Of a stretch of DNA of 50,695 nt, positions 44,245 through 47,627 are shown one piece after another. Made by a program: the position numbers and the translations under genes. The DNA is from Vulcanimicrobiota bacterium (GTDB lineage Bacteria; Vulcanimicrobiota; Vulcanimicrobiia; Vulcanimicrobiales; Vulcanimicrobiaceae). The stretch spans positions 1-50,695 of the forward strand of contig JASHOM010000077.1 in NCBI GenBank assembly GCA_030041115.1. The letters are read 5' to 3'. Numbering within the stretch: position 1 is the first letter of the stretch; each line of letters opens with the position of its first letter. The notes under the pieces are model-generated. The model had not been told where the DNA came from and searched no databases. It saw only the letters and a program-made list of their open reading frames with translations.

Positions 44245-45573
44245 TTAGCCCCCGAGAGCCGGGAAGATGATTTGCGCCGTAGAGATCAGCGTCAGCATGC
44301 CCACGAGGAACGCGGTCGTCCAGGCAATGACGTTGAAAAGGGAGCTGTTCGTCCATGCCCCCATCAACCGTCTGTCGTTGATGAGCAATAGCATGAGAAC
44401 GAGAACGACCGGCAGCAGCACGCCGTTGAGCACTTGCGAATAGAAGATGATTCCGCCCAGCGGCGCACCCGGAATCACGACGACGCCGGCGCCGATGACG
44501 ATGAGCGCGAGGTAGAAGCCGTAAAAGATCGGAGCTTCAAAGAAGCGGTGGTCGACCCCGCGCTCGAATCCGAAGGCCTCGCAGACGTAGTATGCGGTCG
44601 AGAGCGGAAGAATCGAGGCCGTGAAAACGGCCGCGTTGAGCAATCCCAACGCGAAGAGCAGCGCCGCGAACTTTCCGGCGATGGGCGCGAGCGCGACGGC
44701 AACGTCGCCGACGCTGTTGCTCACGTTGATCGCATGTCCGCCGGCATGAAGGTTGTGGATGTAGATCGTCGCCGCGCAGGCCACGATGATGAAATACGCG
44801 ATCACGTCGGTCCATATTCCACCGGTTACCACGTCGAGGCGCGAGTAGCGATAATCATCCTCGCGGATGCCTTTGTCGACCACTGCTGCTTGAATGTAAA
44901 ACTGCATCCATGGCGATATCGTCGTGCCGATCACGGCAATGATCATGATGACGTACGCCTTCGACGCTTGAAAGTGCGGGATCACGCTCTGACGTACGAC
45001 GTCGCCCCAATCGGGACGAACCATGAAGGCGCTGACCACGTACGCAACGTAGACCAAGCAGAAGAAGAAAAAGATCCGCTCGACGAGCTTGGCCGTCCCC
45101 CGCGTGACTGTGAGAAAGACGAAGAGCGCCGCGCCCAGGACCATGGCGATTTTGAAGGCTTCGGCATTCGAAACGTGCAGATAGCCGCCAAAGATCGGGG
45201 CGGATGCCGCCACACCGGCGAATTCGGTAGCCGTATTGCCGACGTCGCCGAGAACGAACAGAAGGAGACACCAGAACGTCACCTTTACTCCGAAGTTCTC
45301 GCGAATGAGGTCGGCTAATCCCTTGCCCGTGACCGCGCCCATGCGGGCGCACATTTCCTGAACGACGACGAGCGCGACCGTGATCGGCACCAACAGCCAG
45401 AGTAGCGAATAGCCGAACTGCGCGCCTGCCTGCGAATAGGTCCAGATGCCGCCGACGTCGTTGTCGGCGTTTGCGGTGATGATGCCGGGGCCGACGATCG
45501 ACAGAAACATGATGATCGAGCGCCAAACGTTCGGGCGGGCGACTCGCTTTGCCGGCATGGTTTGCGCGGTCAT
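44245..45573 (-). CDS. NRAMP-superfamily divalent metal transporter, atypical (NRMT/Mg2+-type proposed)
   Basis: NRAMP fold sequence GPGIITANADNDVGGIWTYSQAG in TM1 and GTTISPWMQFYIQAAVVDKG in TM6; canonical DPGN and MPH motifs replaced. Confidence 0.88.
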   Translation of the reverse strand: MTAQTMPAKRVARPNVWRSIIMFLSIVGPGIITANADNDVGGIWTYSQAGAQFGYSLLWLLVPITVALVVVQEMCARMGAVTGKGLADLIRENFGVKVTFWCLLLFVLGDVGNTATEFAGVAASAPIFGGYLHVSNAEAFKIAMVLGAALFVFLTVTRGTAKLVERIFFFFCLVYVAYVVSAFMVRPDWGDVVRQSVIPHFQASKAYVIMIIAVIGTTISPWMQFYIQAAVVDKGIREDDYRYSRLDVVTGGIWTDVIAYFIIVACAATIYIHNLHAGGHAINVSNSVGDVAVALAPIAGKFAALLFALGLLNAAVFTASILPLSTAYYVCEAFGFERGVDHRFFEAPIFYGFYLALIVIGAGVVVIPGAPLGGIIFYSQVLNGVLLPVVLVLMLLLINDRRLMGAWTNSSLFNVIAWTTAFLVGMLTLISTAQIIFPALGG

Positions 45574-45612
45574 CGCTTGCGGCTCATTCCGGATCGGAGC
45601 AGCGCCGGCGTC

Positions 45613-46989
45613 TCAAATCTGCACATGATATCGCAGCCCGAATATCGCGACCGGACCTCGCGCCGCGTTATACGCGGGGTTTCGAACGAACTGGTAATCG
45701 GCGGTAACTGCCGCATCCGCACCGACACCCGCCTTGTAGTACGCTTCGACGATTCGTTCAGCCGCGTACGAGAGGGCCCCGTCGCCTATCAGTATGCCAA
45801 GTCCGCCGGCTGCGAAGTATTGCTGCGCCGGAGCCGAGATCGCGTTCACTACTCCGGCGAGTCCGATGGCGTCGTTGGGACGGCCGTAGAGTCCGCCATC
45901 GACCGATACTCCGGCACAGGCCGACCGGTCGACGTCCGTGAACTCAAAAGCCTCGTACGTTCCGTTCATCGCACTGAGCCGGCCGAAGACGCCGACGTGA
46001 GGAGCAAGCTCCTGATAGGCGTTGACGCCGCCGCCCAGCTTCCAATGACGCGCCGTTCTGACGGCGGCGGTGCTTGGCGGCTGCCCGCTGCCGGCGGCTG
46101 CCGCGAGCGCGTCGGCGTACGATCCCATGAAACCGTAGTCGCCGTAGACGAGTGCTTTGATCGCTCCCGGACGTCCGCCGAATAGCGAGGTTCGCCGCTC
46201 GAACTCGACGATCGGAGAATATTCAAAGAATGGCACCGGTTCGATCGCGATCGTGTTCGGCACGGTTGAGAGCTGAAACAATCCCACGCGCAGGGTCGAT
46301 CGTGAAGAGTAGAGTTCCGCGCTCAAACCGTAGGTATATCCCCAAGCGTCCGCGGCGTAATCGAACGAACCCATGTCGATGATCGACCAGTTCATAAAGT
46401 CGTTTGAAGGATCGTGCGCATAGGGATTCGTGTCAAAGACGTCCGTGACGGCGAACTTTCCGAACGTTAGCGTCAGGCGATTCGGGCTTACCGCGGTGCC
46501 GAGCTGATTGACGCCGGGGTCGACCGTCAGGAGCGGCGTGCCGAAATTGAACGTTTGGCGCAAGAACAGACGCTGAACTCGCTCGTACGTACTTGCGCTG
46601 CCGACCTTGTAGGCTTCGCCGGAGACGTATCCTGCGACCCCGAACGTTCCCGAGTACGGAGCCGGCGCGCCCGGCGGGTTGGGAAATCCGAGGCCGTAGC
46701 CTTGGTCGGCTTCAGGATTTACGTAGAATTCGGCGCCTTTCCAAAGCCGCAAACCGAGGAAAAGCGTCGTGGAGAACGTCTTCGCCGTGTCGGCGTTAGG
46801 ATCGAGGCTTTGCGAGCCCGAGTAGGCGGCGGCGAACTCCCCGTGATACTGCTGAACGTCCGTCGCTTGGCCGTGAATGCTCCATTGCTCGGCCTTTGGG
46901 GCGGCCGAAGGTGACGGTGACGAACTGGGAGCGGTCGTCGCTACGGGTGTCGCCGTTTGCAGCGCCGCGAGAAGGGCAGCGAGCAGCAT
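45613..46989 (-). CDS. Outer-membrane porin, OprB/carbohydrate-porin-like
   Basis: WSIHGQATDVQQYHGEFAAAYSGSQSL, LTFGKFAVTDVFDTNPYAHDPSNDFMNWSIIDMGSFDYAADAWGYTYGLSAEL, terminal FGLRYHVQI. Confidence 0.82.
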   Translation of the reverse strand: MLLAALLAALQTATPVATTAPSSSPSPSAAPKAEQWSIHGQATDVQQYHGEFAAAYSGSQSLDPNADTAKTFSTTLFLGLRLWKGAEFYVNPEADQGYGLGFPNPPGAPAPYSGTFGVAGYVSGEAYKVGSASTYERVQRLFLRQTFNFGTPLLTVDPGVNQLGTAVSPNRLTLTFGKFAVTDVFDTNPYAHDPSNDFMNWSIIDMGSFDYAADAWGYTYGLSAELYSSRSTLRVGLFQLSTVPNTIAIEPVPFFEYSPIVEFERRTSLFGGRPGAIKALVYGDYGFMGSYADALAAAAGSGQPPSTAAVRTARHWKLGGGVNAYQELAPHVGVFGRLSAMNGTYEAFEFTDVDRSACAGVSVDGGLYGRPNDAIGLAGVVNAISAPAQQYFAAGGLGILIGDGALSYAAERIVEAYYKAGVGADAAVTADYQFVRNPAYNAARGPVAIFGLRYHVQI

Positions 46990-47029
46990 GCGCTTCCACT
47001 AATGCCTCATGCCGAATGTCACGCTGCGG

Positions 47030-47176
47030 CTAGCTGACGAGTGCTCGCCAAAAGCTGAACGGGGCGCTACCGTTCTGTCCCTGGTTTGCCCGCAAGCTGT
47101 CGTTATGAAAGCCTGCATCTCGCGGCCGAACGACGTTGCGGCCAAAGGCAATCAGAGCTGCCAGAATTTTTTTCAT
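47030..47176 (-). CDS. Small ORF (48 aa) with strong RBS and signal-like N-terminus, between riboswitch terminator and porin
   Basis: AGGAGG-tacgtgtc-ATG; MKKILAALIAFGRNVVRPRDAGFHNDSLRANQGQNGSAPFSFWRALVS*. Confidence 0.35.
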   Translation of the reverse strand: MKKILAALIAFGRNVVRPRDAGFHNDSLRANQGQNGSAPFSFWRALVS

Positions 47177-47312
47177 GACACGTACCTCCTAGTGGTGAAC
47201 GGTTTGCCGCGCCGAATGCACGGCGCGGCGCAAAAATAGCCGGCTCGTTCCGAGCCGCGCGCACGAGCTACTGCCTGGTCCGTCGTCCATGGCGAGGCAT
47301 CACCCCCTTTCC

Positions 47313-47352
47313 AAAATAAAAAACTGTCGCCGCTCCCCGCAAGCCGACAGTT
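47313..47352 (-). terminator. Intrinsic terminator of the M-box expression platform
   Basis: Minus strand AACTGTCG...CGACAGTT followed by TTTTATTTT. Confidence 0.85.
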
Positions 47353-47385
47353 CGAGAAACCTTGCGCGATCAAATCGCGCCATCT

Positions 47386-47592
47386 CCCTCAATGTCGAGC
47401 TTTAGCACCGCACGACGTAGGCCTCCTTGTCATTCCGAGCCCTTCGGCTATGTTCGGGATGAACTTCATCGAGGAGGTCAGCCGCATTAGATTCCGCCTT
47501 GATTCGGCGGGATCTGGTCACCCGTTGGGGTCTCTCGACCTTTCCGGGCAGCGGCGTCTCTTCGTACAGACGCCTCACCTAACGAGGAATCC
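47386..47592 (-). promoter_or_regulatory. M-box (ykoK leader) Mg2+-sensing riboswitch aptamer
   Basis: Minus strand CTCGTTAGGTGAGGC...GCCGCTGCCCGGAAAGGTC...GACCCCAACGGGT...CTAATGCGGCTG...GTGCTAAAGCTCGACATTGAGGG: matches the conserved blocks of the M-box in order. Confidence 0.9.
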
Positions 47593-47599
47593 TTCAACC

Positions 47600-47627
47600 A
47601 GGATACTCGTGACCGAGGCTTTGTCAA
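47600..47627 (-). promoter_or_regulatory. Sigma70-type promoter driving the M-box leader
   Basis: Minus strand TTGACA - 16 nt - TATCCT; predicted TSS about 47593, just before the M-box. Confidence 0.75.

Follow-up and report, generated by a model that had tools for sequence, protein, structure and literature searches.

In the usual view, general porins let Mg2+ through the outer membrane passively. The locus described here, in which an M-box riboswitch precedes an outer-membrane porin and an NRAMP-type transporter, raises the question of whether Mg2+ entry across both membranes may be controlled by a single RNA switch. The window (the whole stretch of 50,695 nucleotides that was analysed) comes from an uncultured member of Ca. 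Eremiobacterota from soil, whose assembly comprises 2.6 Mb in 222 contigs and is 95% complete. A cultured member of the phylum has an outer membrane and a typical Gram-negative envelope (Vulcanimicrobium alpinus, PMC9758169). On the minus strand, the locus consists of a promoter, an M-box, an antiterminator/terminator region, a leader element, a small open reading frame (uORF2), a porin of the OprB fold, and an NRMT-type NRAMP transporter. The operon genes all lie on the same strand, with 39 nt separating the porin stop from the transporter start, and are presumably co-transcribed. They are flanked by a diverging mutL gene on one side and a converging LytR-CpsA-Psr gene on the other. Because a LytR-CpsA-Psr gene also lies downstream of NRMT in the genus relatives, the loci are comparable. 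The first-round comparison covered the window and 110 other M-box loci, and the phylum survey covered 149 genomes. Among 132 distinct M-box loci, the first genes downstream mostly encode NRMT/NRAMP transporters, MgtE_N-CBS proteins, or outer-membrane barrels. At four loci of other lineages (L025, L050, L052, and L109), a PRC/MgtE_N/CBS protein, which is the known NrmT partner, is encoded 3' of the M-box, and before NRMT where the sequence allows.

The promoter (TTGACA-N16-TATCCT, 47600..47627, minus strand) was located by a consensus scan and is of the conserved sigma-70 type. The motif GGGTTGACA...GAGTATCCT is found 5' of the M-boxes in genus relatives, indicating that the same promoter form, proposed in the original prediction, is conserved. 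The prediction had also recognised an M-box, and the RF00380 covariance model bore this out, matching over its full length (1-169) at 47381..47593 (minus strand) with 122.9 bits (gathering threshold, 44) and an E value of 3.8e-27. This ykoK-type aptamer is the sole M-box in the 2.6 Mb assembly, and no other known RNA family was detected in the leader at E<5. Membership in the RF00380 family points to Mg2+ as the probable ligand. One variable loop of the M-box is enlarged by about 53 nt (47420-47479). We considered that the insertion might be a genome repeat, but a good second copy is absent elsewhere in the genome.

The stretch from the 3' strand of P1 to the U-tract was folded with ViennaRNA, and the P1 3' strand was withheld to mimic the Mg2+-bound aptamer. 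In the predicted antiterminator (47342..47400, minus strand; MFE -37.0 kcal/mol), the P1 3' strand CUCGACAUUGAGGGAGA pairs with UUUCUCGAACUGUCG. The small stem-loop GCGCGAT-TTG-ATCGCGC (47364-47380), noted earlier as a separate element, is real and constitutes the apical hairpin of this antiterminator. The antiterminator excludes the terminator hairpin, which forms in a state of -33.0 kcal/mol once the P1 3' strand is unavailable. The intrinsic terminator of the original prediction, a hairpin followed by a U-tract (47318..47352, minus strand), also held up: its stem pairing is kept across 23 relatives, with compensatory changes at two pairs. The arrangement of M-box and terminator is that of a classic OFF switch, and the operon is almost certainly controlled by the M-box. 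Past the terminator, a search for conserved leader structure gave just three further pairs, which were unconvincing. Another hairpin with a T run is present at 47257-47241, but most relatives are without a comparable T run, and thus there is probably no second regulated terminator. In one relative (L239; G038:C29:15500-24500), other sequence stands in place of the aptamer core, but the locus still has its promoter, terminator, leader element, uORF2, and NRMT; this may represent a loss of the riboswitch.

The transporter (442 aa; 44245..45573, minus strand) matches the Nramp family PF01566 with 308 bits. Its best match in the PDB is EleNRMT of Eggerthella lenta (7qia, E 3.3e-95), whereas Mn2+ transporters reach 5e-26. 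The signature of NRMTs is DxxG-TxxA/T (PMC8806188). In TM1, D39-V-G-G42 of the window protein aligns with D55-G58 of EleNRMT and has the DxxG form, not DxxN. In TM6 (T217-T-I-S220), the equivalent of Thr224 is present and the Met that selects transition metals is missing, in keeping with the NRMT-like assignment originally made. Ser220 replaces Ala227 of EleNRMT, so that the site reads DxxG-TxxS with Ser instead of the usual Ala/Thr. Of the 87 NRAMPs at the M-box loci surveyed, 33 have this DVGG/TTIS form, which is the commonest. M-boxes also control a second clade of NRAMPs (L098, L100, L102, L104, and others), in which the signature is DAGA / TT[IV]A and the predicted ORF is longer, at about 550 aa, with uORF1 and uORF2 upstream. 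No match to CorA or MgtE, and none to MgtA over the cut-off, was found in the 95% complete assembly; the NRMT is therefore likely to be the main Mg2+ importer. Together with the match to EleNRMT and the binding-site signature, this absence supports Mg2+ as the cargo, and we regard Mg2+ import by the NRMT as highly probable.

The original prediction of an OprB-like porin agrees with a PF04966 match of 98.9 bits (cut-off, 22.9) over a 458-aa protein encoded at 45613..46989 (minus strand). An AlphaFold2 model of modest confidence (pLDDT 62) has about 16 strands, and its top PDB match is OprB of Pseudomonas putida (4gey, E 2.3e-17). The porin had been placed as the first gene of the operon. Outer-membrane barrels do recur in this slot, but a small-protein gene (discussed below) comes ahead of them as the first conserved gene past the switch. 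The proposed search of related genomes for an M-box with a porin and an NRAMP showed that barrels recur 3' of M-boxes, but that OprB itself is the exception. A tblastn search gave no homologue of the window porin in the other 110 first-round loci, and in most genus relatives another barrel, c3, fills the slot; we rejected OprB as a conserved operon member across relatives. OprB is rare in the phylum (13 copies in 12/149 genomes). Three of the 13 copies (in the window, L135, and L201) are preceded by an M-box within 5 kb and belong to different genera, and the tree does not separate a single from an independent origin of this linkage. OprB relatives in other genomes (L232-L234) do not adjoin M-boxes, and a further M-box operon contains a fragmentary, decayed OprB gene (L133:5066-5494). 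The signal-peptide regions of the window porin and of c3 in two relatives (L007 and L009) are alike, and when the 5' end of the window porin was aligned to L007, 2 of 500 shuffles scored as well. The likeness is no more than suggestive of an in-frame replacement of c3 by OprB that kept the old signal peptide.

The c3 protein is an unannotated protein of about 600-614 aa that occupies the barrel slot in most genus relatives (e.g. L002:4154-5998, alignment A1) and has no match in Pfam or NCBIfam. A model from the A1 alignment is a beta-barrel of fair confidence (pLDDT 77, pTM 0.78; AlphaFold2), which Foldseek places closest to the LamB, Occ, AlgE, and MOMP porins. A relationship of c3 to OprB as a divergent form was not supported, as hhalign gave a probability of 13% over 22 columns and no profile similarity. 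The c3 family occurs in 59/149 genomes, at about one copy per genome, and no genome of the window's genus carries c3 and OprB together. Twenty-eight of 57 c3 copies, from three families and many genera, have a same-strand M-box no more than 5 kb upstream; the binomial P values for M-box linkage treat related genomes as independent and are to be read as 'far above chance' only. Based on the repeated linkage of both c3 and OprB to M-boxes, we consider outer-membrane barrels to be recurrent members of M-box operons alongside NRMT and the window barrel to be a substitute. Both types of barrel are net negative, which is weak evidence for cation passage. Barrels are apparently also being lost, as suggested by the decayed OprB gene and by an internally deleted c3 remnant in another M-box operon (L008:5510-5980). 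Because only this remnant is left in L008, and because close relatives (L004/L101, G042) have M-box-uORF2-NRMT operons without a barrel, the barrel appears to be dispensable and not essential to the arrangement.

Two elements between the terminator and the porin had been overlooked by the original prediction. A conserved Shine-Dalgarno (SD)/AUG leader element is located at about 47305-47275, where an extended SD sequence, AAAGGGGGTGATG, lies just upstream of ATGGACGACGG (MDDGP...). The corresponding uORF1 (47189..47290, minus strand) is present in 25 distinct M-box leaders, and the element co-occurs with uORF2 in most leaders. The pN/pS ratio of uORF1 is 0.47 over the first 8 codons and 1.0 over the remainder; conservation is limited to the first ~8 codons, and a real peptide is unsupported past them. 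The other element, uORF2 (47030..47176, minus strand; SD AGGAGG), encodes a 48-aa small protein, MKKILAALIAFGRNVVRPRDAGFHNDSLRANQGQNGSAPFSFWRALVS, with 26 distinct homologues. In many genera these stand 3' of an M-box, at some 200 nt from the aptamer, and have the core H(N/D)DxLRANQ. Close pairs differ mainly by synonymous changes (e.g. pS 0.29/pN 0.04 and 0.15/0.02), and translation of uORF2 under selection is therefore very likely. Neither Pfam nor NCBIfam has a matching family; one Pfam match (E 0.03, single member) was taken as chance. The search of the 149 genomes gave 30 strong matches, of which 26 are directly 3' of an M-box. The other four, away from a called M-box, are a homologue directly 5' of a c3 barrel (L237:4250-4372), one elsewhere (L238:4819-4962), a copy upstream of an M-box in a locus with a second copy downstream (L240:1322-1447), and the one in the locus whose aptamer core is gone (L239). 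A helping or tuning role for the small protein, directed at either the barrel or the transporter, is probable.

The locus may thus be read as an operon that is repressed by Mg2+ and serves to take up Mg2+ through both membranes, a reading to which we assign a probability of roughly 60%. When cellular Mg2+ is high, the M-box would fold with its P1 helix holding the 3' strand, and the terminator would form and stop transcription. Under low Mg2+, the 3' strand of P1 would instead pair downstream as the antiterminator, and the polymerase would continue into uORF2, the porin, and the NRMT. The barrel would raise the permeability of the outer membrane to hydrated Mg2+, and the NRMT would carry Mg2+ through the inner membrane, with probable help from the 48-aa protein for one of the two. 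The two-membrane system of the original prediction is favoured by the EleNRMT match, the lack of CorA, MgtE, and MgtA matches, and the recurrence of M-box-linked barrels, with Mg2+ passage through the porin as its conjectural step. Since relatives repeatedly place an outer-membrane channel in the M-box operon, a dedicated Mg2+ entry route across both membranes is probable in Ca. Eremiobacterota. A fuller picture, in which interchangeable barrels, a lineage-specific 48-aa protein, and an NRMT replacing CorA, MgtE, and MgtA form one riboswitch-controlled pathway, with the small protein binding the barrel or transporter physically, is less likely than not.

The barrel could also be made under low Mg2+ for the sake of the envelope, stabilising or reshaping an outer membrane that has too few Mg2+ bridges while carrying no Mg2+ itself. 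Outer-membrane proteins induced by low Mg2+ are already known, and OprH of Pseudomonas aeruginosa, which is PhoPQ-dependent, has such a role; that two unrelated barrels are able to fill the slot, and that it is sometimes empty, would fit a generic envelope function. However, the two barrels have the large folds of porins (OprB; LamB/Occ/AlgE-like) and not small 8-strand ones, and they sit with an importer; we consider this explanation unlikely. We give equally little weight to the idea that a carbohydrate-type OprB with no Mg2+ function joined the M-box operon through chance, or because it helps once growth resumes. The OprB family name refers to carbohydrate uptake, thus implying sugars, and most copies of this rare protein have no M-box link, but those that do have one belong to different genera, a decayed copy adds to them, and an unrelated barrel occupies the same slot in relatives. 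The name of the family, the OprB relatives away from M-boxes, and the barrel-free M-box operons count against the two-membrane reading, and a role of the barrel in Mg2+ uptake is only somewhat favoured.

The transporter might instead carry mainly Mn2+, with the M-box just coupling its expression to Mg2+ status. In complementation, NrmT of Acidobacterium capsulatum fully rescued a Mn2+ defect, but rescued a Mg2+ defect only at low millimolar Mg2+ (PMC4072509), and Ser220 departs from the NRMT signature. The A. capsulatum gene, however, has no M-box, and its authors propose the M-box as a marker of Mg2+ specificity (PMC4072509). As the window genome also has no other Mg2+ importer that we could find, a mainly Mn2+-carrying protein is improbable.

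The two-membrane reading can be compared with several known systems. Operons of M-box and NRMT have already been described, as the original prediction stated; in the M-box-(MgtE_N-CBS)-NrmT operons of Clostridia and Deltaproteobacteria (Shin et al. 2014, PMC4072509), the M-box precedes NRMT and is of the transcription-termination type, as here, but the MgtE_N/CBS partner is absent from the window operon and no outer-membrane barrel is mentioned there. A porin partner likewise lies outside the EleNRMT study (PMC8806188). In Mycobacterium tuberculosis, an M-box controls PE20-PPE31 and outer-membrane Mg2+ uptake behind a conserved small ORF (PMC12810186, PMC12302996). Like the window, the pe20 operon carries a uORF1 of poor conservation, then a small uORF2 that is conserved, and then an outer-membrane Mg2+ component, for which the barrel is the candidate in the window. 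In contrast, its switch is translational/Rho-dependent, its outer-membrane proteins are mycomembrane PE/PPE proteins and not such beta-barrels, and it has MgtC and no NRMT. The small ORFs are likened by position, not by homology: Pro7, reported as conserved in the Rv1805A-type uORF2 of M. tuberculosis, is not seen in alignment A3 of the uORF2 homologues. The window porin shares its Pfam family and predicted fold with 4gey at 15% identity, but its operon context suggests Mg2+ uptake. A riboswitch over an outer-membrane import component is also seen in the cobalamin riboswitch, which controls BtuB; however, BtuB is a TonB-dependent receptor with a vitamin ligand, whereas the window locus combines a metal ion and a porin. 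In the papers searched, a set with most subscription journals outside it, we found no M-box operon with beta-barrels in a diderm phylum, and riboswitch-controlled outer-membrane Mg2+ uptake behind a conserved small ORF only in M. tuberculosis.

Although this kind of M-box/NRMT operon is already known, the locus yields two families that were unannotated until now, the barrel of about 600 aa and the conserved M-box-linked small protein, the latter with a parallel in the small ORF, as yet unexplained, behind the M-box of M. tuberculosis. A lineage without the usual Mg2+ importers, with barrels under a Mg2+ riboswitch, would offer a direct test of regulated outer-membrane Mg2+ permeability outside mycobacteria.
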